A program made the translations under genes and the position numbers. DNA of 24,728 bases from a virus: positions 1-24,728 of IMG/VR virus record IMGVR_UViG_3300036715_002626; one strand, given 5' to 3'. This document shows positions 10,545 through 21,068 of this stretch, in pieces (position 1 is the first letter of the stretch; the number at the start of each line of letters is the position of its first letter). Under the pieces are notes generated by a model, which was not told the origin of the DNA, made no database searches, and saw only the letters and a program-made list of their open reading frames with translations.

Positions 10545-12515
10545 TCAGGACAGCCAGCGGCTTTTGATCACGCGCCGACCAGTGTTACGGTTGCCAGAAA
10601 CAGCGAGGCCACCGCGTTGGGTGGCCTCGTTGATCGATTCAGTATGTGTTTCAAGGGCTAGCGGACTGGCCAGCCCCAGTTGTCGCTCCAGTTCCCGCCA
10701 GTGACGTTCCTCGAAGCGATCCAGACCCGCCGCCGATGCAGCCGCGCGGGCGTAGACGTAGCAGTCGAGCGCTTCATTGCGCTCGCGCATCTTTTGCCAC
10801 TCACGCACCGGGAAGCCGTTGCGGTCGCGGCGGGTGATCAGTTGCTCCGCGCAGAGTTGCTGGATGAACTCGGCGTCGATCTTGGGCAGATGGACAAATC
10901 CGGCTGGAAACACTGTGGTCAAACCGTCCTCGCCCACATCAGCGCTCTTGCGCAGGTTGTTGTAGAACTCCAGCTTGGCGATGCTGACCGCCACCGTGTA
11001 CACCTTGATGCCACGGCGCAGCTTCTTGCCGCCCTGCGAGACATCGATGGCGGTCGGCGTGCCGATCAAGGCTGCGCCGCGAGGCACACCTTTGACTGCC
11101 ATCACACGCGGATCGCGGCAGGCCCGCACAAAGGCATAGGCCTCCTGCGTCGCAAAGCCGGTATCCAAGGCAAAGCGCGCCAGCGGCATCGCCGCGCCGG
11201 AGGCGTGTGTCCAGGTCTCGGCCAGCATTTCAGCAAGGCGTTTCCACACCGTGTCGCGGGCGCCGGTTTCATGTACTGGACCCATCAGCACGCGATGCTC
11301 GATGAGCCACGACTCCTTCCCGCGCCCGAATGCCCAAACCGATGCCTCGATGCGATCCTTCTGTACATCGGCCGCGCCCACCAGCAGCAGACCGCCTTGC
11401 GGCACGCTACCGACACGGTAGTCCTCTCGGCGCTCGACCAGTCGTTGCCAATCAGGCGCTTCGCCTTCCTCGACCCAGGTTTCACCCAGCTCGGTGTTCT
11501 TGAAGGTCTTGATGGCGGCTGCTGATCCCGATTCCTTGCTGACGGCGGCTTCCCAGGCAGCGGCAATCTCCCGCCAACTGCGCCAGCCCACCGGGCTGTA
11601 CAACGACGACAGGTGGAAGCCTGCCGTCTTGCCCGCGCCATCGGTGATCATCGCGCGCCACTCGCCGTGCTCCAGCATCCACGTCTTGTGATGCTCGGCA
11701 ATCGCGGTGTCACACGACTCGCAGATGTAGGCGGCGGTTTCAGGCTGGCCCTTATCCCAGCGTAGTTGCTCAAAGCGCAGCCACTGCCGGTGCGAGCAAT
11801 GCGGACACGGCACAAAGTAGCGGCGTTGGTCACTGGCCTCGTACTCGCGCTCGATAGCAGACGCCCCTGAGATCGTCGGCGTCGAAACGATGAAGATCTT
11901 GCGCCGAGCAAAGGTGCGTGTGCGGGCTTCGGCCAGCGAGATCGCATCGCCTTCGCCCTCGACGTCCAACGGATAGCCGTCGACCTCGTCGAGGAACAGA
12001 TACCGCACCGGCATTGAGCGCAGCCCGACCGCGCTGTTGGCCCCGGTCATCACCAGCACGCCACCCCGGAACTCCTTGGCCAGGATAGTGTTGCCGGAAT
12101 CCCGACTGCGCGCCGGTGCAATCAGTTCAGCCAGTGCGGACGACTCCTCGATCAGCGGATCGATCCGCTGCTTGGAGTTGCGCTTGGCCATCTCCACCGT
12201 CGGCCACACAGCCATCATTGGCCCGGGCGCGTGGTGGATGACATAGCCGATCCAGTTCGATCCCATCTCTGTCGCGCCAAGCTGCGCCGCCTTCATGAAC
12301 ACCACGCGCTCGACCGCTGAGGTCGGCGACAGGCAATCCATGATTGCTTTCAAGTACGGCGTGCGGCTGGTGCGCCAGCGCCCCGGCTCGGCAGACGCCT
12401 TGCTGGAGAGCATCCGGTGGCGATCCGACCATTCGGACACGGTGAGCAGCGGGTCAGGGGTAAGCCCGTCGCGCCACGCCCGTTCGATCTCAACAGCGCC
12501 TTCGTAATCGTCCAT
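10545..12515 (-). CDS. terminase large subunit, lambda gpA family
   Basis: This 656-residue protein (lambda gpA is 641) carries the deviant Walker A of gpA terminases, KAAQLGATE, at residues 75-83, and a Walker B LFLDEVD at about 173-179. A CPHC (237-240) / CESC (265-268) pair forms a probable zinc site. The nuclease half includes ALDTGFATQEAYAF. It cuts the concatemer at cos and drives DNA into the prohead. The ATG at 12515 is preferred; a TTG two codons upstream (12521) overlaps the small subunit stop and is possible. The following genes are in lambda-like order. Confidence 0.95.
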   Translation of the reverse strand: MDDYEGAVEIERAWRDGLTPDPLLTVSEWSDRHRMLSSKASAEPGRWRTSRTPYLKAIMDCLSPTSAVERVVFMKAAQLGATEMGSNWIGYVIHHAPGPMMAVWPTVEMAKRNSKQRIDPLIEESSALAELIAPARSRDSGNTILAKEFRGGVLVMTGANSAVGLRSMPVRYLFLDEVDGYPLDVEGEGDAISLAEARTRTFARRKIFIVSTPTISGASAIEREYEASDQRRYFVPCPHCSHRQWLRFEQLRWDKGQPETAAYICESCDTAIAEHHKTWMLEHGEWRAMITDGAGKTAGFHLSSLYSPVGWRSWREIAAAWEAAVSKESGSAAAIKTFKNTELGETWVEEGEAPDWQRLVERREDYRVGSVPQGGLLLVGAADVQKDRIEASVWAFGRGKESWLIEHRVLMGPVHETGARDTVWKRLAEMLAETWTHASGAAMPLARFALDTGFATQEAYAFVRACRDPRVMAVKGVPRGAALIGTPTAIDVSQGGKKLRRGIKVYTVAVSIAKLEFYNNLRKSADVGEDGLTTVFPAGFVHLPKIDAEFIQQLCAEQLITRRDRNGFPVREWQKMRERNEALDCYVYARAAASAAGLDRFEERHWRELERQLGLASPLALETHTESINEATQRGGLAVSGNRNTGRRVIKSRWLS

Positions 12516-12517
12516 CG

Positions 12518-13090
12518 TCAATCCACGCGCGGGCGCAGTTCGCCCAGTTCGATCAGGTGCTCGCGAACGGCGGCTTCCAGCGTGACGTGCATCGTGTGCG
12601 TGTCAACGCCAAGCGCGGAGGCCATCTGCCCCGAGATGCGCGCGGGCCAGTTCAACCACGCGTCGCGCTCGATGCGCGCGAGCTTGAAAACGTGGGCCAC
12701 GGCCTGCGCACGATCCACCAGTTCCTTCTTGCGGTGTGCCAGCTCCAGGTTGTTGAGCTTGGCCTTGAGCACCTCGTTGACCGTGCGCGCCTGCAAGAGC
12801 GAGGTACCGCCCGCCGACATCGGCGCTGTGCTGGCGTCGGCGACATCGCGCTGCGGTGTTGCTTCGGCGGTCGCTGTTGCGGGCGCGGGTCGCGCCTTTG
12901 TGGTGCTGACCTTCTCCTGCGCAGCGGCGCGGCGCGGCTGCAATGTGTTTTGTGCCCACTGCGCGTCGGCGGTATCCGGATCAATCGTGCCGTCTGGCAG
13001 CGGTGTGATCCGCCCGGTGTCGATGGCCTTCTTCACGGCCACGTGCGACACGCCACGGTGGCGCGCGTAGGCGCGAATCGAGAGTCCCAT
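12518..13090 (-). CDS. terminase small subunit-like DNA-packaging protein
   Basis: This 190-residue protein opens with an HTH domain (MGLSIRAYARHRGVSHVAVKKAID) followed by the ITPLPDGTIDPDTADAQW segment common to phage terminase small subunits. An Ala/Thr/Pro-rich linker (about residues 52-95) leads to a helical C-terminal part with LNNLELAHRKKELVDRAQA, the self-association and large-subunit contact region in this family. It recognises the packaging site and delivers DNA to the large subunit. The ATG at 13090, behind AAGGTG, is chosen over an in-frame TTG five codons earlier. This is the first gene of the late operon; the packaging site itself was not recognised. Confidence 0.88.
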   Translation of the reverse strand: MGLSIRAYARHRGVSHVAVKKAIDTGRITPLPDGTIDPDTADAQWAQNTLQPRRAAAQEKVSTTKARPAPATATAEATPQRDVADASTAPMSAGGTSLLQARTVNEVLKAKLNNLELAHRKKELVDRAQAVAHVFKLARIERDAWLNWPARISGQMASALGVDTHTMHVTLEAAVREHLIELGELRPRVD

Positions 13091-13133
13091 CGTCACCTTC
13101 TTCAATCATTTGTTCGTCATTTCTGCGGATTGA

Positions 13134-13200
13134 GCTTGGCTTCCATCGGGAACAGCGCGTTCATCACGTCACGCCAACCACACCCCGAAAGGAACACGCC
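13134..13200 (+). repeat. conserved leader repeat, copy 1 (before the DUF6900-like gene)
   Basis: This 67-base leader ends at the ATG of the first island gene. It holds GCTTGGCTTC, a 6-base spacer, GAACAGCGCGTTCATCAC, then CCCGAAAGGAA as ribosome site region. The two blocks have the same spacing in all three copies. A TTGGCT-17-GTTCAT arrangement also fits a weak promoter. Unlike copies 2 and 3, no hairpin arm precedes it. Confidence 0.8.
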
Positions 13201-13407
13201 ATGAGCCAGATCGACACCATCCTCACCCTGATCGCCCAGAAGCATCTGGGCATCGACACCCTGCAAACCCGCCACGCTGACAGCCTGGACTTCCACGACA
13301 CGGCGGTGTGGTGCCTCAAGGACGCGCTTGAAGCGGCCTTCAAGGCGGGCGTCGAACTCGGCGCGTCGAGCCCGAAGGCCACGGAAGCGGAGATCGCCAA
13401 GGACTGA
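13201..13407 (+). CDS. small DUF6900-like protein
   Basis: This 68-residue protein (MSQIDTILTLIAQKHLGIDTLQTR) is the first of three plus-strand genes inside a minus-strand phage genome. It appears to be a single helical domain: an N-terminal helix, then DSLDFHDTAVWCLKDALEAAFKAGVELG, followed by a short charged tail. It matches a small family I recall as DUF6900, found on mobile elements and plasmids next to DUF3489 proteins. Its biochemical role is unknown. AAAGGAA lies upstream of the ATG, inside leader copy 1. The gene is divergent from the terminase small subunit. Confidence 0.82.
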   Translation: MSQIDTILTLIAQKHLGIDTLQTRHADSLDFHDTAVWCLKDALEAAFKAGVELGASSPKATEAEIAKD

Positions 13408-13423
13408 TCGGAAACCCACGAAA

Positions 13424-13455
13424 CCAAGCGCCAGAACCGATCAAAAGGCGCTTGG
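13424..13455 (+). other. hairpin at the start of leader copy 2
   Basis: CCAAGCGCC (13424-13432) pairs perfectly with GGCGCTTGG (13447-13455) across a 14-base loop. The right arm is the first block of leader copy 2. No T run follows, so it is not a standard terminator. Confidence 0.6.
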
Positions 13456-13515
13456 CTTCACTCCCGAACAGCGCGTTCATCACATCGTCATCTACCAACC
13501 CCGAAGGAGCAGCCC
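13450..13515 (+). repeat. conserved leader repeat, copy 2 (before the DUF3489 gene)
   Basis: This 66-base leader has the same plan as copy 1. GCTTGGCTTC, six bases, and GAACAGCGCGTTCATCAC (all 18 bases identical to copy 1) are followed by CCCGAAGGAG and the ATG. The variable bases between the blocks differ, so it is not a recent duplication of the whole region. Confidence 0.82.
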
Positions 13516-14097
13516 ATGACCACCACCAACCTGACCCCGGCCCAGCACGCCATCCTCGCCAAGGCCATCAACACCAGCGGCGGCAAGATCGACTGGTTCC
13601 CCGACAACATCAAAGGCGGCGCGCGCAAAAAGGTGCTCGACGGCCTGTTCAACCGCGCTCTGATCACGCCCGATGGCGAGGGCTGGTGCGTCGCCGCCGA
13701 GGGCTACGACGCCTTGGGCATGAAGCGCCCCCACGTCAACGCCAAGCACGTCTCCAAGTTCGAGGCCAAACTCGACGCAATCATTGCCAACGCCGAAGCG
13801 GCGCAGGACGACACCGCAGACGCTGACGCGGAACTCGAAGCCGCCGTTGCCCAAGCCGAGGCATCCTTCAAAACGCCCGTCAAAGCGCCTCGTACCCGCG
13901 ACAACAGCAAGCAAGCCGAAGTGATCCGGATGCTGCAACGCCCCGAGGGCGCAACCATCGGCCAGATCTGCACCGCCACCGGCTGGCAGGCGCACACGGT
14001 GCGCGGCACCTTCGCCGGGGCGTTCAAGAAGAAGCTGGGCCTGACCATCGTGTCGGACAAGCCGCAGGGCGGCGAGCGGGTGTACCGCATCGCCTGA
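13516..14097 (+). CDS. DUF3489 domain protein, two winged-helix-like parts
   Basis: This 193-residue protein has an N-terminal domain (about residues 6-75) with LTPAQHAILAKAINTSGGKI and LDGLFNRALITPDGEGW, a winged-helix pattern. An acidic Ala/Asp/Glu linker follows (84-117). The C-terminal domain (about 128-193) carries DNSKQAEVIRMLQRPEGATI, then TGWQAHTVRGTFAG, and ends with GGERVYRIA; this is the DUF3489 signature. DNA binding is likely but not shown. DUF3489 genes are often seen beside recombinases on mobile elements (recollection). AAGGAG precedes the ATG. It is the middle gene of the three-gene island. Confidence 0.9.
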   Translation: MTTTNLTPAQHAILAKAINTSGGKIDWFPDNIKGGARKKVLDGLFNRALITPDGEGWCVAAEGYDALGMKRPHVNAKHVSKFEAKLDAIIANAEAAQDDTADADAELEAAVAQAEASFKTPVKAPRTRDNSKQAEVIRMLQRPEGATIGQICTATGWQAHTVRGTFAGAFKKKLGLTIVSDKPQGGERVYRIA

Positions 14098-14117
14098 TCA
14101 GAAAGATCGAGAAAGAG

Positions 14118-14134
14118 GCCAAGTGGCGCTTGGC
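14118..14134 (+). other. hairpin at the start of leader copy 3
   Basis: GCCAAG (14118-14123) pairs with CTTGGC (14129-14134) around a 5-base loop. As in copy 2, the right arm belongs to the conserved CTTGGCTTC block. It lies about 20 bases after the DUF3489 stop and lacks a T run. Confidence 0.5.
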
Positions 14135-14194
14135 TTCTCAATCGAACAGCGCGTTACTACGGGTGTCGCAACGATCAACCCGAAGGAGCCAGAG
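14128..14194 (+). repeat. conserved leader repeat, copy 3 (before the third island gene)
   Basis: This 67-base leader has GCTTGGCTTC, a 6-base spacer and GAACAGCGCGTT, then a diverged middle, then CCCGAAGGAG and the ATG. Block spacing is identical to copies 1 and 2, and distance to the start codon differs by at most one base. Confidence 0.8.
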
Positions 14195-14563
14195 ATGAAC
14201 ACCACCACGCAGATCCCCGCCACCCAAAACGATGCCTGGGGCTTTTGGGGCACGATGAACGAACACGCCAGCGCCGCATGGCCCCTGGCGATGGCCGCCA
14301 TCTCGGACGCCACCGGCCAGCCCTTCGAATCGGTACGGGTCTTCCTCGACAGCCGCCACGGACGCTACTTTGCGGACGACGTCCAGAACGGTCTCTATCA
14401 GGGCCAGTCCCTGGCGAACGCGATCAACGCCGCCACGGAGCGCTGGATGGGCTGGACGATTGGCCGCCAGACCAGCAAGCAGTACGGCATCCCACGCGGC
14501 CTGCCTTACCTGACGGGCTTCGTGATTCACTGCGAGATCCTCGACGAGTCGCTCGCTGCCTGA
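14195..14563 (+). CDS. conserved hypothetical protein of the plus-strand island
   Basis: This 122-residue protein begins MNTTTQIPATQNDAWGFWGT behind AAGGAG. It is rich in aromatic residues and contains AWPLAMAAISDATG, VRVFLDSRHGRYFADDV, ERWMGWTIGRQTSK and GLPYLTGFVIHCEI. I recall similar proteins on plasmids and integrative elements, without known function. There is no signal peptide, membrane segment or catalytic motif. Its 3' end overlaps the convergent methyltransferase gene by 37 bases. A longer frame starting at 14123 would swallow the leader repeat and is rejected. Confidence 0.82.
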   Translation: MNTTTQIPATQNDAWGFWGTMNEHASAAWPLAMAAISDATGQPFESVRVFLDSRHGRYFADDVQNGLYQGQSLANAINAATERWMGWTIGRQTSKQYGIPRGLPYLTGFVIHCEILDESLAA

Positions 14564-15789
14564 TCGAGCGCCGCGCCATCCGCCTCGCGGGTGGCCTGCT
14601 TGCCGGTGAACTCCTCCCACCGGCGCACGATCACGTCGACGTACTTGGGGTCGAGTTCGATCAGCCGCGCAACGCGGCCTGATTTCTCTGCGGCGATCAA
14701 GGTCGTGCCCGAGCCACCGAAGGGGTCGAGCACCACGTTGCCGGGTCGGCTGGAATTGCGGATCGCGCGCTCGACCAACTCCACCGGCTTCATCGTCGGG
14801 TGCAGGTCGTTCTTCTGCGGCTTCTTGATGGCCCAGACGTCGCCCTGGTCGCGGTCGCCACACCAGTGGCGTGTCTCCCCCTCGGGCCATCCGTAGAGGA
14901 TCGGCTCGTACTGGCGCTGGTAGTCGGCGCGGCCCAGCGTGAAGGTGTTCTTGGCCCAGATGATGAAGGTCGACCACTTGCCACCGGCTGCGCGGAAGGC
15001 GGCCTGCAGCACATCCAGTTCGCTCGACGACATCGCCACGTACATCCCGCCCCGGCAATGCGCAACGGTGGGCGTCAGTGCGGCCAGCAGAAAATCGTAG
15101 AACCCGTCGCCCAAGTTGTCGTTCAGGATCGCGCGATCCTTGCCACGCATCTTGTCCTTCGCGCTGTTGGCGTAGTTCACGTTGTAGGGCGGGTCTGTGA
15201 AGACCATGTCGACCGGCTCGCCTTGCAGCAAGGCCTCGTAGCTTGCATCCACGGTGGCATCGCCGCACAGTAGGCGGTGTGGGCCCAGCACCCAGACATC
15301 GCCCGGGCGCGAGATCGGCGTCTCGCCAATCTCCGGCACCGCATCCTCATCGGTCTGCCCCTCGTTGTCAGGCTCGTCGCCCGCGATCAGTTCGTCCAGC
15401 GCGTCGGCGTCGAAGCCGGTGATGTCGATGTCGAAGCCGTCCAGCTGCAAGGCTTCCAGTTCGATGCGCAACATCGCGTCGTCCCAACCCGCGTTCTCGG
15501 CGATGCGGTTGTCCGCGATGACCAAGGCGCGGCGCTGGGTCGGGCTCAGGTGATCGAGTACGACCACGGGCACGATCTGCAGCCCGAGCTTCTGCGCAGC
15601 CGCCAAGCGCCCATGCCCGGCAACGATCACGCCGTCACTGCCTGCAAGGATCGGATTCGTGAAGCCAAACTCGGCAATCGATGCAGCGATCTGGGCCACC
15701 TGATCATCCGAGTGCGTCCGCGCATTGCGTGCATAGGGCCGCAGTTTGGCGGTTGGCCACTGTTCGATCTTGTCTGCCAACCAGTTCAT
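14527..15789 (-). CDS. ParB-like domain / DNA methyltransferase fusion (DPPY type)
   Basis: This 420-residue protein has a ParB/sulfiredoxin-like domain (about residues 10-135) with ARNARTH and AGHGRLAAA. An acidic linker follows, then a methyltransferase with TDPPYNVNY (198-206), HPTMKPVEL (330-338) and the SAM-binding DPFGGSGTT (355-363). Having the catalytic motif before the SAM motif makes it a beta-class amino-methyltransferase; DPPY favours N6-adenine. It probably modifies phage DNA against host restriction. The ATG overlaps the upstream paralogue's stop by four bases. No restriction endonuclease is nearby. Target sequence is unknown. Confidence 0.93.
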   Translation of the reverse strand: MNWLADKIEQWPTAKLRPYARNARTHSDDQVAQIAASIAEFGFTNPILAGSDGVIVAGHGRLAAAQKLGLQIVPVVVLDHLSPTQRRALVIADNRIAENAGWDDAMLRIELEALQLDGFDIDITGFDADALDELIAGDEPDNEGQTDEDAVPEIGETPISRPGDVWVLGPHRLLCGDATVDASYEALLQGEPVDMVFTDPPYNVNYANSAKDKMRGKDRAILNDNLGDGFYDFLLAALTPTVAHCRGGMYVAMSSSELDVLQAAFRAAGGKWSTFIIWAKNTFTLGRADYQRQYEPILYGWPEGETRHWCGDRDQGDVWAIKKPQKNDLHPTMKPVELVERAIRNSSRPGNVVLDPFGGSGTTLIAAEKSGRVARLIELDPKYVDVIVRRWEEFTGKQATREADGAALDQAASDSSRISQ

Positions 15790-17201
15790 GCCAGCACCTC
15801 ATCATCAACGGTGGTGGCGCGCTCGGCGGCAACCTGTTCGAACGATTGACCTGTTGCCAGCAGCGTGACCGGCACGCCAGGGTGGTTCTGCTGAAAGCGC
15901 TTGATGGCCACGTCCACGTACTGCGGTGCGATCTCCATGCTGCGGCAGAGGCGGCCAGTGCGCTGCGCAGCCAGCATCGTGGTACCGCTTCCACCGAAGG
16001 GCTCGAACACAATGTCTCCGGCTTCGGTGTAAGCCTCGATGGCAAACTCCGGCAACGCCACCGGGAACACAGCCGGGTGATCGATGTCCTGCCCGATCTT
16101 GCCCTTGTGGCGCATCACGCGGATCACCGAGTCGGGGATGCGAGTGTCCTGCGTCGGCTGACCCTTGTGTGTCCAGCCGCCGACCTCGCCATCCTTGCCG
16201 CGCATCGCCGTGGACGTCCCGTCAGCGCGCAGGTGCGATTCCTGCCCAGCGTGCTTGCAGGGCACGATCTTGTTCGGCTTGCGGCTTTCGCGGTTGAAGT
16301 GGAAGACGAACTCGAAGCTCGGGGCCAGTCGGCCCTGCCAGTCGCCAGGCATCCCCGGCCCCTGATCCCAGACGTACCACGCAAAGCGCCGCCAGCCCTG
16401 CTGGCGCATCCAAGATAGCCAACCGTCCCAATACGGGATCACTTCGTTGTCGCGGTGGATGAGGCCAAGGTTGACCAGCACCTGACCATCGGTCGCCATC
16501 GGCAGGTGTGCAAACACGCCGCGCATCAGGCCATCCCAATCGGTGATGCCGCCCGAGGTGTAATCGCGCTGGTTGCCGTAGGGCGGCGAGGTGAAGCACA
16601 GGCGAGAGACTTCACCCTTCATCAGCGCAGCGACCACGTCCCGGTCGGTGGCGTCGCCACAAATCAGGCGGTGCGACCCGATGGCCCAGACATCGCCGGG
16701 GCGCGACACCGCCACGACCGGCGCATCCGGCACGTCGTCCGCTGCGTCCGGCTCGTCGGTATCCGGCTCCGGGTCGGTACCGTCGTCGGTCACATCACCC
16801 GTGAGCAGCGCTTCAATCTCGGCATCCTCGAAACCGGTCAGGGCAAGGTCGTACCCGGCCTCGGACAAATCGGCCAGCTCCAGGGCCAGCATCTCTTCGT
16901 CCCAGCCCGCATCAAGCGCCAGCCGGTTGTCGGCGATCACCAGCGCCCGTTTCTGCGCGACGGTCAGATGGGCCAGTTCGATCACCGGCACCTGATCCAG
17001 GCCGAGCTTGCGGGCAGCGGCCAGACGCCCATGCCCGGCGATGATGCCGTTGTCGCCATCGACCAGGATCGGGTTCGTCCAGCCGTACTCGACGATGCTG
17101 GCCGCTATCTTGGCGATCTGGCCATCGGCGTGTGTGCGCGGATTGCGGGCGTAGGGAATCAGCGCCTCGACCTTGCGGTACTCGACGTTGAGCGTGTTCA
17201 A
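15786..17201 (-). CDS. ParB-like domain / DNA methyltransferase fusion (SPPY type)
   Basis: This 471-residue paralogue of the next gene has the same order: ParB-like domain (about 5-135) with ARNPRTHADGQ and AGHGRLAAA, a long Asp/Pro-rich linker (136-160), then the methyltransferase. The catalytic motif is TSPPYGNQ (204-211) and the SAM motif FEPFGGSGTT (399-408). An SPPY motif is common in N4-cytosine enzymes, so it may modify a different base from its DPPY neighbour; this is inference. The only start found is TTG at 17201, with GGGAAG upstream and a terminator-like hairpin just before it. Low expression or tight control is possible. Confidence 0.92.
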   Translation of the reverse strand: MNTLNVEYRKVEALIPYARNPRTHADGQIAKIAASIVEYGWTNPILVDGDNGIIAGHGRLAAARKLGLDQVPVIELAHLTVAQKRALVIADNRLALDAGWDEEMLALELADLSEAGYDLALTGFEDAEIEALLTGDVTDDGTDPEPDTDEPDAADDVPDAPVVAVSRPGDVWAIGSHRLICGDATDRDVVAALMKGEVSRLCFTSPPYGNQRDYTSGGITDWDGLMRGVFAHLPMATDGQVLVNLGLIHRDNEVIPYWDGWLSWMRQQGWRRFAWYVWDQGPGMPGDWQGRLAPSFEFVFHFNRESRKPNKIVPCKHAGQESHLRADGTSTAMRGKDGEVGGWTHKGQPTQDTRIPDSVIRVMRHKGKIGQDIDHPAVFPVALPEFAIEAYTEAGDIVFEPFGGSGTTMLAAQRTGRLCRSMEIAPQYVDVAIKRFQQNHPGVPVTLLATGQSFEQVAAERATTVDDEVLA

Positions 17202-17210
17202 AGTGGACTT

Positions 17211-17251
17211 CCCAAAAGCAAAACCCGCCGAGCGTTGCCGCCGGGCGGGTT
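17211..17251 (-). terminator. terminator-like hairpin before the SPPY methyltransferase gene
   Basis: AACCCGCC (17222-17229) pairs with GGCGGGTT (17244-17251) across a 14-base GC-rich loop. On the minus strand the stem is followed by TTTTGCTTTT, the form of a rho-independent terminator. It ends only about ten bases before the TTG start, so it more likely attenuates than ends an operon. Its stem matches that of the hairpin before the capsid gene. Confidence 0.65.
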
Positions 17252-17276
17252 GGGTGAATGAAGATTCTGGTGGGGT

Positions 17277-17331
17277 GGTAACTGCGCCTGGGGGTGGTAA
17301 CCGGGGCCGGTAACCTGGCCGACTGGTAACC
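17277..17331. repeat. four GGTAAC repeats (candidate operator or iterons)
   Basis: GGTAAC begins at 17277, 17296, 17309 and 17325. The last three are GGTAACC, a 7-base interrupted palindrome, and the first two share the longer GGGGTGGTAAC. Spacings are 19, 13 and 16 bases, so they are not in perfect helical phase. They lie about 75-130 bases upstream of the methyltransferase start. Confidence 0.6.
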
Positions 17332-17545
17332 TTGCCCGCGCCCTGACGCTAAAAAAGCGCCGCGCTCGCGCCCCCCGCATGGGATTTTGGACAGGAAGGA
17401 CCCGTCGAATTTTCTGACCGGAAGCGATGTAGGCGTCACACCCACACCGCTCGCCAGATCATAGCTGTCATCCTATCAAAATCCGGCCTTTGTGTTGCAT
17501 GCCAGTTTCATCCAAAAATGCCCAGAAGCCTTAAACCAAAGACAT

Positions 17546-17983
17546 TCACGGTATGTATTGCTCTACTTGCCTCTCCAGTTTGGAAGAGTGACCGACGGCT
17601 GCGGTCTGGCGACCGTTCAGATGATCGGCCACGATCTGCAATGCCTTCTGCCACCGCCGCCAGGCAGTCGTGCGGTCACGCCCGAGGCGGCGGCAGATGA
17701 ACTTCCACTCGTAGTGCTTGGCGCGCATCCAAACCAAATGCCGCTGCTCCACCTCCAGCCACTGCATCCAGCGCATCGTCTCCAGCATCCGTTCGATGGC
17801 CTCGGGAGTTGGGGGAAGTGGCCGGTATTCGTAGTCCTTGTCGTCGAAGCCTTCCCACCCATCGCGCACGAAGGCTGGCCACACGTTGAAGTAGCCTTGA
17901 ACCCTGACCCGTGGCAGTCGCCGTCCCGTCTCGGCCGCCTCGGCAAACCGGGTCGCCACGTCGTCGATCGTCCACTCAGCCAT
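17546..17983 (-). CDS. DUF6362 family phage protein (HTH-like)
   Basis: This 145-residue protein begins MAEWTIDDVATRFAEAAETG and overlaps the end of the upstream gene by eight bases, behind GGAGG. It contains LPRVRVQGYFNVWP (residues 23-36), a Trp-rich helical centre, and a C-terminal segment KFICRRLGRDRTTAWRRWQKAL that reads like a helix-turn-helix with a basic recognition helix. It matches the family I recall as DUF6362, common in proteobacterial prophages near replication or packaging genes. DNA binding and regulation of the adjacent gap are plausible but unproven. It is the last gene of the early minus-strand run. Confidence 0.88.
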   Translation of the reverse strand: MAEWTIDDVATRFAEAAETGRRLPRVRVQGYFNVWPAFVRDGWEGFDDKDYEYRPLPPTPEAIERMLETMRWMQWLEVEQRHLVWMRAKHYEWKFICRRLGRDRTTAWRRWQKALQIVADHLNGRQTAAVGHSSKLERQVEQYIP

Positions 17984-18176
17984 GGCGTTTCCCTCCGTAC
18001 AGGCGTTCTCCAAGTCGTCGCACGAACTCGCGCTCGACGAAATCCAACCGCTTGTCCTCCTCGGATACCACGAGGATGTGCTGGTCGCGCCAACCCTGGC
18101 GTTTGATGCTCTCCGGATCCTCGCGGGAAGAACTGCGATCGAGCGGGCAGCGGTATTGCTGTGCCGGGATCTTCAC
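17976..18176 (-). CDS. small conserved phage protein
   Basis: This 66-residue protein starts with GTG (MKIPAQQYRCPLDR), placed one base after the stop of the resolvase gene with GGAGG ahead. It is strongly charged, with SREDPESIKRQGWRDQHILV and EDKRLDFVEREFVRRLGERLYG. I recall such proteins in other proteobacterial prophages next to a RuvC-like gene, without known function. It overlaps the DUF6362 gene by eight bases, so the resolvase, this gene and DUF6362 are probably translated together. Confidence 0.82.
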   Translation of the reverse strand: MKIPAQQYRCPLDRSSSREDPESIKRQGWRDQHILVVSEEDKRLDFVEREFVRRLGERLYGGKRHG

Positions 18177-18177
18177 G

Positions 18178-18642
18178 TCAGACCTCCTGCGTCTCGATGG
18201 CCCAGTGCAGCAGTGCCAGGGCATCGGCTTCGTTGTCATCAACCGGAGCGTGGCCACGCGCACGAACGGCTGTGATCACGTCCTCCTTGCCTGCATTACC
18301 TTTGCCGGTCGCGTGCTTCTTGATCGTGCCGACTGGCACGCCCTGGTACGGGATCTGGTGGTGCTCGCACCACGCCGTGAGCGTGGCCAGGAATCCGCCG
18401 TAGGCGTGCGCGGCATCGGTCGAGACGTGGCGGCGCACTTCCTCGAAGTAGAGGCAATCGATGCCGTCGCCGGATTGCTTGATCTCCGTGAGCCAGCGCT
18501 TGAAACGCAGGAAGCGCATGCCACCCCCTTCGAAGCGTTGTGGGCGGAAGCTCTCGGAGCCACTCGTGATGTGGCCGTCGTTACCGTGCAGCGCCCAGCC
18601 GGTGGTGGTGCCCAGATCGAGGGCGAGGATGGTCGTGGTCAT
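18178..18642 (-). CDS. RuvC-like Holliday junction resolvase
   Basis: This 154-residue protein begins MTTTILALDLGTTTGWAL. The RNase H-fold acidic residues are Asp9 in LALDLG, Glu67 or Glu68 in LYFEEVRRH, and Asp136/Asp140 in DDNEADALALL. The TIKKHATGKGNAGK segment (107-120) is typical of RuvC-family substrate-binding loops. Length and motifs fit phage RuvC-type resolvases, which cut branched DNA before packaging. The ATG at 18642, behind AAGGA, is chosen; a longer frame would run through the inverted repeat. It is the first gene after that repeat, and the primase-helicase lies beyond it. Confidence 0.92.
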   Translation of the reverse strand: MTTTILALDLGTTTGWALHGNDGHITSGSESFRPQRFEGGGMRFLRFKRWLTEIKQSGDGIDCLYFEEVRRHVSTDAAHAYGGFLATLTAWCEHHQIPYQGVPVGTIKKHATGKGNAGKEDVITAVRARGHAPVDDNEADALALLHWAIETQEV

Positions 18643-18666
18643 GGTGTCAGTCCTTGTTTGGGAACA

Positions 18667-18767
18667 GGTCTGACGCTTCCGACGGATCATGTCGTAACTC
18701 TCCGTGACGCGCGCACGCGCACGCGCGTATAGAGAGTTACGATGTAGAGCGTCGGAAGCGTCAGGCC
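18667..18767. repeat. large nested inverted repeat / potential cruciform
   Basis: Three nested dyads share one centre. The outer arms are 18667-18683 and 18751-18767 (17 bases, one mismatch, core CTGACGCTTCCGAC). The middle arms are 18692-18702 and 18732-18742 (11 bases, perfect). The inner arms are 18707-18713 and 18722-18728 (ACGCGCG/CGCGCGT). The outer and middle stems are separated by symmetrical 8-base internal loops. It fills most of the 143-base gap between primase-helicase and resolvase. It lacks a T run, so an origin-like or structural role is more likely than termination. Confidence 0.85.
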
Positions 18768-18785
18768 GGTGTGTCGTCATCGGGT

Positions 18786-21068
18786 TCAGTTGTCGGCATA
18801 AGGGGTGTAGGCCGGCTTGGGCGGATTCTTGAGACCCACGCCCCGAAAGCCGCGCACACCCACACTGTTGCGCCACTTCTCCAGCCCGCGCGTGATCAAG
18901 AGATCGGAGAAGCGCCGCTGCGAGCCGACAAACTCACCGGCACTGTCGGCCCACTGCTTCCAGTCATTGAAAAGTTCGGCGGTCAACGACTTGGCGTTGG
19001 CTTCGCGCACGCAGCGCTCGTCGAGCCAGCGGCCTAGCGCGTCCTCAGCTTCGAAATACTCCTCGGTGGCTTCCACCACACGCCGGGGCGGATCGAGTCG
19101 TCCATGGCGCTGCCAGTCCAGACACCCTTGAACCGCCCAGGCCAGAATGCCGTCACGCTCGGCCAGCAATTTCTGCTGCAGGTGCTTGTCGCGGCGCTCA
19201 GGCGGCACGGTAATCGTGAAGGGGATCAGGTGCAGTCGACGCTTCATCGCCTCGTCGATGTTGCGAATGGCCGGCTTGTGGTTGCCAGCGACAAAGAGCT
19301 TGAACTGCGGGAAGAACTCGAAGAAGTCCTGGCGCATGAAGCGCGCGGAGATCTTGTCGCCACCGGTCAGGTTCTTGAGCTTCGATTCCGCCCAGCGTCG
19401 CCCCTGCTCGGTTTCGATCGCCGCGACGAAACGTGCACCGCGCAGGCCTGCCATATCGGTCGGGTGCCGATCAGTCCGCGTCTCCATGAAGGTGTCCATA
19501 GGCGCGTTTGTCGCGTAGTCCCCGAGGATGGTGGCCAGGGTGTTCACGAACACCGACTTGCCGTTCGCGCCAGTGCCATACAGGAAGAACAGTGCATGCT
19601 CCTGCGTCGAGCCGGTCAGCGCATAGCCCACCATTCGTTGCAGATAGGACTGCAATTCCACGTCACCACCCGTAACTTCATCGAGGAACCTTCGCCAGGT
19701 CGGGCAGTCACCTCCAGGTGTGGCCGTGGTGATCTTGGTCATCCGGTCGGCACGGTCATGTGGTCGCTGACGTCCAGTCTTGAGGTCGACAACGCCGCCT
19801 GGGGTGTTGAGCAGCCACGGATCAGAATCCCACTCCTCGGTGGTGGCGGCATGTCGACGATCTGCCCTGGCCAGCCGTTCCACACCGCCGACCGTGCTCG
19901 AACTGGCAAGCTTGGCCGCCACCTTGGGATTGTCTGCGCGCACAGCGGCGTGCCGGCAAACGCAGCGGATCAGATCGGTTGCGGCCAGCGTGTCCTCGGT
20001 TCGCCAACGATTGCCGTCCCACACCAGCCAGCGCCCCCAGCCTGCGACGTAACGCCAGTCACGGTGATAGCGCCGGGTAAAGGCCAGCGCCAGCGCGTCC
20101 TCCGTACCCCACACCGATTCGTCGCTACTGACGACGGGTTCGGCATCCTCTGTCACGTCGTGCATCTGCAATCGCGGGCCATGGGCGAGGAAAGCGGCGA
20201 CGTCAAAACCCTCGGCAATGGCATCGGCCGCATCCCAGCCGTCCGCCGCCTCCTCGGGCGGGTACAGGATGAAGCACGACTTCGCACCCGCCGACAGGAT
20301 GGCTTGTGCCGCCTGTGTCGCGTACTCCCAGCCCGGCTTATCACGGTCGGGCCAGATCAGCACGGATTTGCCTGCCAACGGCGACCAGTCGGTCTTCTCG
20401 ACCGGGGCGTTCGCGCCGTGCATCGCGGTGGTCGCCACGATGCCGGCATCGATCAAGGCCTGCGCGCACTTCTCGCCCTCGACCAGAACGACTTGGGCAG
20501 CATCCTTCATCCCCGGCTGGTTGTAGAGCGGGCGCGGGTCGGGCGGTGCCATCTTGCGCCGCTTCGCATCCCACGGCCGGAACTGCTTCTTTTGCCCTGG
20601 TGGGTCGTAGCGGTAGACCACCGCTACCAGGTGCCCACTGGCATCCAGGTAGTCCCACTTGGCCGTGGCCGGGCCCAGATCATCGACCGGGGCTTCCTTC
20701 CTGGCTTTGCGTGACGGCGCTAACCTGGCCCGTCCAAGCAGGTCGGCGGATTGCTCCAGCACCCGAGGGAAGTCGGCGTGGACATCGATGCCGAAATGCC
20801 CGCCGATCAGTGTGAAGATGTCGCCGCCGTCACCGGTAGCGCGATCCGTCCATAGCCCCGCCTTCTCGCCATCGAGTACCACCTCGAGGCTGTCGCCCGG
20901 ACTGCCCAGTGCGTCGCCGATGAGGAATTTGCCATTGCGCTTTTTTCCAGCAGGGAACATCGTGGTCAGCACCGACTCCAGGCGTACGAGCAGTTCTGCT
21001 CGAATCTCGTCGCGATCTGATTCCCGGCTGTGCTCCTCAGTTTGAGTCGTGTTGTTGAAGTCGATCAT
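18786..21068 (-). CDS. primase-helicase, P4 alpha / D5 type
   Basis: This 760-residue replication protein has a degenerate primase N-terminus (about residues 20-110). A TOPRIM-like part follows with VEGEK (196-200) and WPDRDKPG (239-246). A D5_N-like linker spans about 340-480. The SF3 helicase shows Walker A GTGANGKS (498-505), an acidic strand FVAAIETEQG (547-556), and sensor and arginine-finger-like FVAGNHKP and MKRRLHLIPF (592-617). It would prime and unwind phage DNA. The ATG (MIDFNN) overlaps the HTH gene stop in ATGA. A large plus-strand frame across 19104-20714 is antisense. Confidence 0.95.
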   Translation of the reverse strand: MIDFNNTTQTEEHSRESDRDEIRAELLVRLESVLTTMFPAGKKRNGKFLIGDALGSPGDSLEVVLDGEKAGLWTDRATGDGGDIFTLIGGHFGIDVHADFPRVLEQSADLLGRARLAPSRKARKEAPVDDLGPATAKWDYLDASGHLVAVVYRYDPPGQKKQFRPWDAKRRKMAPPDPRPLYNQPGMKDAAQVVLVEGEKCAQALIDAGIVATTAMHGANAPVEKTDWSPLAGKSVLIWPDRDKPGWEYATQAAQAILSAGAKSCFILYPPEEAADGWDAADAIAEGFDVAAFLAHGPRLQMHDVTEDAEPVVSSDESVWGTEDALALAFTRRYHRDWRYVAGWGRWLVWDGNRWRTEDTLAATDLIRCVCRHAAVRADNPKVAAKLASSSTVGGVERLARADRRHAATTEEWDSDPWLLNTPGGVVDLKTGRQRPHDRADRMTKITTATPGGDCPTWRRFLDEVTGGDVELQSYLQRMVGYALTGSTQEHALFFLYGTGANGKSVFVNTLATILGDYATNAPMDTFMETRTDRHPTDMAGLRGARFVAAIETEQGRRWAESKLKNLTGGDKISARFMRQDFFEFFPQFKLFVAGNHKPAIRNIDEAMKRRLHLIPFTITVPPERRDKHLQQKLLAERDGILAWAVQGCLDWQRHGRLDPPRRVVEATEEYFEAEDALGRWLDERCVREANAKSLTAELFNDWKQWADSAGEFVGSQRRFSDLLITRGLEKWRNSVGVRGFRGVGLKNPPKPAYTPYADN

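Follow-up and report, generated by a model that had tools for sequence, protein, structure and literature searches.

What could a phage gain from two DNA methyltransferases that lie side by side, each fused to a ParB-like head and each with a different catalytic motif? The question is raised by the stretch of DNA examined here (the window), a 24,728-base virus record (IMGVR_UViG_3300036715_002626) that is a fragment without host DNA. Fusions of the ParB_N-N6_N4_Mtase kind are frequent in phages and prophages (PMC12704722, PMC6536676) and are commoner in phages than in bacteria (PMC12704722). An earlier note on this DNA described two adjacent genes of the same domain order, one with the motif TDPPY and the other with TSPPY, and both open reading frames were confirmed. 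We refer to them as D and S, respectively. We propose, with about even confidence, that the pair is a co-translated two-mark DNA-modification cassette, placing N6-methyladenine (m6A) and N4-methylcytosine (m4C), that would protect phage DNA before packaging.

Both genes encode a protein of the same two-part layout. Each exceeds the Pfam cut-off of 26.7 bits for PF01555 (94.7 for D and 84.1 for S), and for the ParB_N family PF02195 (cut-off 26.3) D lies above at 26.7 and S slightly below at 24.2. ParB-like PHROGs match the heads of both strongly, and phrog_498 is the best match of both genes (553 and 388 bits), spanning residues 2-414 of 420 in D and 3-466 of 471 in S. Besides the head, Pfam returned no helix-turn-helix or other ParB domain in either protein. 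The (D/S)PPY motif IV precedes the S-adenosylmethionine (AdoMet) motif I, FxGxG, in S and D alike, as in the beta class, and the two motifs are 158 residues apart in D versus 197 in S. Aligned end to end, the proteins are 36% identical, with 54% identity between the heads and 36% between the bodies.

The difference in motif IV extends to their relatives. Types were assigned by whole-body hidden Markov models whose seeds already carried the TSPPY or DPPY motif; motif IV was TSPPY in all 302 distinct S-type and xDPPY in all 297 distinct D-type ParB-headed relatives, a split that, across the proteins compared, is not a chance feature. A second signature was HPAVFP in 290 of the 302 S proteins and HPTMKP in 207 of the 297 D proteins, 77 of the latter having no match to the regular expression for the HPTMKP signature. 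A quick tree of the bodies (77 rows) contained a single change of type (SH-like approximate likelihood ratio test, 99), and an earlier body tree joined all 31 S bodies with eight ParB-less TSPPY enzymes at a support of 1.0. As judged from these trees, the catalytic bodies are two old, separate methyltransferase groups.

Profile comparison with enzymes of solved structure (PDB) bears on the predicted marks. The S profile matched the m4C enzymes PvuII and rotifer N4CMT at 55.8 and 52.7 bits, and the m6A enzymes M.BceJIV at 45.3, MboIIA at 39.4, M1.HpyAVI (which appears in the S-profile listing under the name DpnA) at 38.7, CcrM at 37.6 and RsrI at 32.9; m6A enzymes other than M.BceJIV ranged from 32.6 to 39.4 bits. 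The D profile matched the m6A enzymes M1.HpyAVI (78.5 bits), M.BceJIV (77.2), CcrM (75.0), MboIIA (63.3) and RsrI (47.1), and the m4C enzymes N4CMT (52.8) and PvuII (28.4), RsrI thus ranking below N4CMT. A literature search on M.BceJIV returned no paper. TTHA0409, the top S match at 84.3 bits, is also matched by D at 68.0 bits, and has been termed a putative beta-class N4-cytosine enzyme (PMC5173035). Most enzymes of this kind in bacteria have SPPY in common, and in rotifer N4CMT m4C was lost when the motif was mutated (PMC8885841). The predicted folds had a mean predicted local distance difference test score (pLDDT) of 75 for S and 81 for D, and the D fold compared best with CcrM (Z 22.6), with N4CMT at 21.0 and PvuII at 19.9; the structure alignments were made without the D proteins of L406 and L220, both of them long, and without that of S in L437. 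We infer activity and base specificity from these classes: D is very probably an m6A enzyme, and S is probably an m4C enzyme. The suggestion that the phage may place two kinds of mark gains support from the body tree and the profile scores, a support that extends to the sequence class of the enzymes and not to their activity.

The heads have a history different from that of the bodies. In a head tree of 24 pair representatives and 29 single enzymes (77 rows), whose bootstrap had not settled and which has some long branches, the body label changes 14 times, and at least 5 of these changes are forced by starred branches. A single clade for all S heads was rejected (log likelihood 247 worse; approximately unbiased (AU) test, p 9.8e-24), and the best match carries the other body type in 13 of 77 heads versus 0 of 77 bodies. 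Alphaproteobacterial D and S heads cluster together (100/99). The S head of Acidithiobacillus phage AcaML1 is 64% identical to the D head of the same phage and lies outside the window's S-head clade; it joins D heads in the first tree and a separate S-head group in a fuller one. Within the window's own group the S heads and the D heads form separate starred clades, and on these trees we claim no recent head swap for the window's own pair. Taken across the family, the trees indicate that ParB heads have been repeatedly exchanged between body types. A simple tandem duplication was rejected both for the bodies, which form two groups, and for a single origin of the S heads, by the AU test. The genes had been described as tandem paralogues, which holds only in part: they are adjacent, but each body belongs to a methyltransferase group of its own, and their heads have been exchanged.

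Both heads match ParB and Noc folds at Z about 15, and most relatives have the P-motif GHGR (291 of the 302 S and 281 of the 297 D proteins); the S and D heads carry both the fold and the P-motif arginine of the ParB/Noc CTPases, here fused to a methyltransferase. That arginine was required for NTP (nucleoside triphosphate) binding in the ParB-fold proteins tested, and a 2025 survey found that 11 of 28 purified ParB-fold proteins bound CTP, ATP or GTP, the bacterial S-adenosylmethionine-methyltransferase ParB fusions among them binding ATP (PMC12704722).

S and D also stay together. In locus sets picked by similarity and fetched by S or D, the order S-then-D was found in 139 of 154 loci from viruses and in 78 of 80 from bacterial genomes, and all 17 single-gene loci lie at a contig edge that leaves the partner no room. 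Of 348 adjacent pairs over all sets, 17 were dropped because the limits of head and body were not clean; the 331 left comprise 259 distinct pairs, some contigs having been fetched twice. The junction was measured in 218 S-then-D pairs, using the gene starts given by BLAST alignments: 126 have the ATGA overlap and 84 a 2-base gap. A class-wide draw of 369 genomes, with up to 4 candidates scored per genome, yielded nine S copies of full length in 8 genomes, among which was the genome chosen as centre, and D adjoins all nine copies. Alphaproteobacterial relatives have the reverse order, seen in two plasmid-borne copies and as a clean D-then-S in 69 of 80 loci. Heads and bodies, all four parts, are under purifying selection, with a median ratio of nonsynonymous to synonymous substitution (dN/dS) of 0.13-0.22. 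As far as these loci represent it, the window's phage group has retained the pair nearly throughout; the pair is not universal.

The DNA ahead of the pair holds an element of its own. The intergenic region of 344 bases between the DUF6362 gene and S (17202-17545) contains a conserved core, a small hairpin, four copies of GTTACC and a terminator-like hairpin. A regular expression for the core matched 218 sequences, in 216 of which the next methylase is S, and the median distance from core start to S start is 186 nt. About 12 bases between GGTCCTTCC and ATGCGGGGGG differ from phage to phage; the rest of the core is rigid. Each of 217 typed loci (L001 was dropped from the iteron set) has at least two copies of one word: GTTTGC in 84, GTTACC in 78 and GTTCGC in 55. 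These three words were chosen after inspecting the sequences, and the loci are mutually related. Covariation was followed in sets of 143 and 116 loci, from which gene-lacking loci had been dropped and which came to 109 and 88 once identical ones were removed. On the gene trees of the 88 loci, the word changes twice for the terminase small subunit (TerS), which is the minimum, 10 times for the large subunit (TerL), 30 for DUF6362, 10 for the S head, 12 for the S body, 8 for the D head and 9 for the D body; with 109 loci the counts are 3 for TerS and 11-14 for the methylase parts. Three TerS positions split the words in 98-100% of rows (V/A/T, K/R/H and D/A/R), and no column separates the three words at the 95% level in the other six alignments. 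The diagnostic residues occupy positions i, i+3 and i+7 of an N-terminal TerS segment that we take for a helix-turn-helix with these residues on its predicted recognition helix. The window's TerS, itself outside the covariation set with close relatives inside it, has V22, K25 and D29 together with GTTACC, as expected.

In phage lambda, cosB stands directly ahead of the terminase genes. It has three TerS-binding repeats (R3, R2, R1) beside the cut site (PMC6092414), as compared to an iteron of three to four copies here, with a word that varies with TerS and a place before two methylase genes. Because the repeats covary with TerS and resemble cosB, we read the element as a terminase-recognition (cos-like) site with a putative cut position, and it is possible that the iteron word and the three TerS residues form a protein-DNA recognition code for the terminase. 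Contig ends, viewed by eye, fall around the element but at no single, sharp position that would give an exact cos cut. No DNA similarity to named phages was found for the window element, and that of the alphaproteobacterial element is limited to some 37 bases, matched in three records; no sigma-70-like promoter site was found in 12500-18900. A similar core occurs in 44 of 82 alphaproteobacterial loci; GGAAGCC or GGAATCC repeats accompany it in 39 of these 44 and, in the loci inspected, lie 200-300 bases upstream of the first-placed D gene. No such core was found in the 38.2 kb scanned of the 59.4-kb AcaML1 genome. The ParB heads were rejected as readers of the iterons: heads need 8-13 changes and bodies 9-14, and neither has a three-way diagnostic residue. 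A counter-result is that, by nearest neighbour below 90% identity, the iteron word agrees with the S head in 66 of 88 and 81 of 109 loci versus 61 of 88 and 79 of 109 for TerS. We trusted the tree counts and the diagnostic residues over this result because TerS proteins of the same type average 0.86-0.87 identity, many above the cut, and that preference is a choice. That the heads direct the enzymes along DNA, as had been supposed, is possible, but the one iterated site found beside the genes tracks TerS and not the heads.

Table 1. Features of the methylase pair, the upstream element and the neighbouring genes (window coordinates)
Feature	Position	Strand	Remarks
S gene	15786..17201	-	471 aa, TTG start; ParB-fold head and TSPPY amino-methyltransferase; predicted N4-cytosine enzyme
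D gene	14527..15789	-	420 aa; ParB-fold head and TDPPY amino-methyltransferase; predicted N6-adenine enzyme
ATGA, 4 bases shared by the S stop and the D start	15786..15789	-	suggests translational coupling
S ParB-fold head, about residues 1-166	16704..17201	-	Noc 7ng0, Z 15.4 over 131 residues
D ParB-fold head, about residues 1-160	15310..15789	-	Noc 7ng0, Z 15.0 over 91 residues
S motif IV TSPPY, residues 204-208	16578..16592	-	invariant in 39-row alignment
D motif IV TDPPY, residues 198-202	15184..15198	-	D199-Y202 invariant in 34-row alignment
Conserved core GGTCCTTCC-N12-ATGCGGGGGGCGCGAGCGCG-hairpin	17342..17402	-	read as cosN-like part of the terminase site
Iteron 1 GTTACC	17325..17330	-	predicted TerS site
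Iteron 2 GTTACC	17309..17314	-	
Iteron 3 GTTACC	17296..17301	-	
Iteron 4 GTTACC	17277..17282	-	
Terminator-like hairpin just 5' of S start	17222..17251	-	by eye; not picked up by the scan
DUF6362 protein, upstream neighbour	17546..18013	-	
phrog_8020 protein, inverted	14123..14563	+	its end overlaps the D end
DUF3489 protein, inverted	13516..14097	+	found beside the pair in both gene-order groups
Terminase small subunit (TerS)	12518..13105	-	V22, K25, D29 accompany GTTACC
Terminase large subunit (TerL), GpA type	10545..12521	-	

The gene order of the window's group is primase, a RuvC-like protein, DUF6362, element, S, D, phrog_8020 and DUF3489 (inverted), TerS and TerL, the two inverted genes opposing the operon between the methylases and the terminase. 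AcaML1 has a similar order, with the pair between replication genes and the terminase; alphaproteobacterial loci are matched on the terminase side only (DUF3489, TerS, TerL). In the AcaML1 group (L157 16234-16791, L371, L391, L400) a TerS-like protein is encoded directly upstream of S, and AcaML1 has an additional annotated TerS further downstream. Close relatives of the window sit within bacterial contigs, and a temperate lifestyle is likely. The earlier note spoke of a lysogen, which agrees with these relatives, the window itself being a virus record without host DNA; it also held that no restriction enzyme is present. No restriction endonuclease match was obtained among 19 scanned window proteins, which are not every open reading frame of this 24.7-kb fragment, and to that extent the statement stands. 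It does not carry over to one relative, the Roseicitreum antarcticum plasmid pRA03 (L239 682-5574), in which the end of a type ISP restriction/modification gene lies some 1.9 kb upstream of a D-then-S pair and a DUF262 gene is also found upstream.

In the protective cassette that we propose, the bearer is a tailed, probably temperate phage, whose D enzyme would add N6-methyladenine and whose S enzyme would add N4-methylcytosine. The exchangeable ParB-fold heads would probably bind nucleotide and load or hold the enzyme on DNA, with the head acting as a clamp that may be NTP-dependent. Both enzymes would mark replicated phage DNA prior to packaging, and progeny DNA would then resist host nucleases whose recognition depends on adenine or cytosine contexts. 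We infer the clamp, the timing and the protection; the two body classes, the conserved pair, the exchange of heads, the covariation of the iterons with TerS and the location of the pair are read from the sequence directly.

Several observations weigh against this proposal. The S model is of moderate quality only (predicted template modelling score (pTM) 0.57; residues 270-380 largely low), and the S fold ties m6A with m4C enzymes, MboIIA, M.BceJIV, PvuII, TTHA0409 and N4CMT all falling at Z 19.9-20.5. Enzymes of the m4C and m6A kinds can cross-react, and motif class is no proof of the mark. D-type enzymes are often single, and they also occurred without S in the class-wide draw; distant ParB-headed S genes occur without D at L415, L419, L420, L422 and L427, where the flanking sequence measures 1.7 kb or more on both sides; a rule that S is never alone was rejected, being true only near the window's phage group. 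In the 2025 survey, 17 of the 28 purified ParB-fold proteins were without NTP binding (PMC12704722).

The leading rival to protection is control of packaging, in which marks near the terminase site would gate or time cutting and packaging and the ParB heads would bring the enzymes onto the DNA at that place. In its favour are the position of the pair immediately after the predicted TerS-binding iterons, at the median distance given above, the covariation of these iterons with TerS, and the comparable core, with iterons of another kind, that stands ahead of the alphaproteobacterial D-then-S pair. Adenine methylation reportedly has such a role at the pac site of phage P1, and phage ParB-like proteins were earlier proposed to direct a modification apparatus during packaging (ParB-Tls loci, as reported in PMC6536676). 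The iteron word nevertheless ignores the heads (10-13 changes for the S head and 8-11 for the D head versus 2-3 for TerS), and AcaML1 has the pair and no core in the part of its genome scanned. We consider packaging control unlikely, and the data leave the choice between it and protection undecided. Epigenetic regulation, in which the pair would mark prophage or host DNA and set expression or lysogeny in the manner of orphan Dam or CcrM, fits the orphan layout, with no restriction partner among the scanned window proteins, and the retention of the pair in many bacterial contigs. It is distinctly unlikely, given that the pair adjoins packaging genes and that the AcaML1 pair is far from annotated recombinase and regulator genes.

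One or both enzymes might also modify DNA in a relaxed, nearly sequence-independent way, which would leave the S/D difference of little consequence. M1.HpyAVI, the closest solved relative of D by profile score, is relaxed in its specificity, and its recognition region is disordered (PMC5173035), and the span between motifs IV and I is short in D. The longer inter-motif region is conserved in S, however, and both types are kept together; we give relaxed modification a slim chance. A Type II restriction-modification system is extremely improbable, even though a PADLOC model for Type II methyltransferases (PDLC03229) fits nearly the whole of D at 746 bits and type ISP and DUF262 genes lie upstream of the pair in the Roseicitreum plasmid. 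Type ISP enzymes carry their own methyltransferase, no endonuclease match was obtained among the other scanned window proteins, and the neighbours conserved group-wide are replication and packaging genes.

Parts of this picture were already known, namely ParB-methylase fusions near the terminase, the AcaML1 pair in the public record and a full-length PADLOC model of the D family. The phrog_498 or phage ParB_N-N6_N4_Mtase fusions have the same domain order and belong to the same family as both genes; in the available text they are treated as one kind, m6A and m4C together, whereas here the body classes are paired and the heads mobile. AcaML1 gp24 and gp25 form the same S-then-D tandem (62.6% and 78.5% identity, 4-base overlap, terminase downstream), but its S head is of another type than the window's, and both genes are annotated only as DNA modification methylase. 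The met1/met2 adenine methyltransferase of Wolbachia phage WO is a D-type relative (46-48% identity) with a predicted ParB-like head (PMC3089641), although it is a single DPPY gene with no S partner in the 4.2 kb fetched around it, and the available text on it reports no activity assay. For the Paracoccus prophage ParB-Tls locus, 36 ParB-headed m6A/m4C enzymes were described upstream of the terminase (PMC6536676); the available part of that account reports no split of catalytic types and no TerS-linked element. The AmM1_67 DNA methylase of Aurantimonas phage AmM-1 (L158) is a D-type ParB fusion with 42% identity to D, and a methyltransferase group that includes an AmM-1 enzyme, possibly AmM1_67, targets GANTC (PMC6536676). 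No publication describing a pair of two types, an exchange of heads or a code between TerS and iterons was found in the literature searched, which took in few subscription papers.

Other arrangements were met among the phage loci. In Streptococcus phage Javan105 (L275), the gene after a ParB-DPPY methylase overlaps it by 8 bases and is annotated as a DNA-cytosine methyltransferase, perhaps another way to pair two marks. Aeromonas phage ST4 (L276) has two DPPY-type methylases side by side, the upstream one cut by the locus end. In Gardnerella phage vB_Gva_AB1 (L285), an annotated S-adenosylmethionine synthetase lies just upstream of a ParB-DPPY methylase, which suggests a supply of methyl donor.

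Should m6A and m4C enzymes with interchangeable ParB clamps, encoded beside the terminase-recognition site, together label the DNA around it, a packaging-linked two-letter mark that we regard as doubtful, the label would let the terminase or host nucleases distinguish completed phage DNA from that of the host or from immature DNA, and a change of heads would redirect the marks or alter their regulation and leave catalysis as it was. ParB-methylase fusions are frequent and unexplained modification genes of phages. The pair offers a natural experiment on them, with similar bodies behind different heads and both predicted marks adjacent, and a readable terminase site next door would make the role of the heads, and the link between modification and packaging, open to test.

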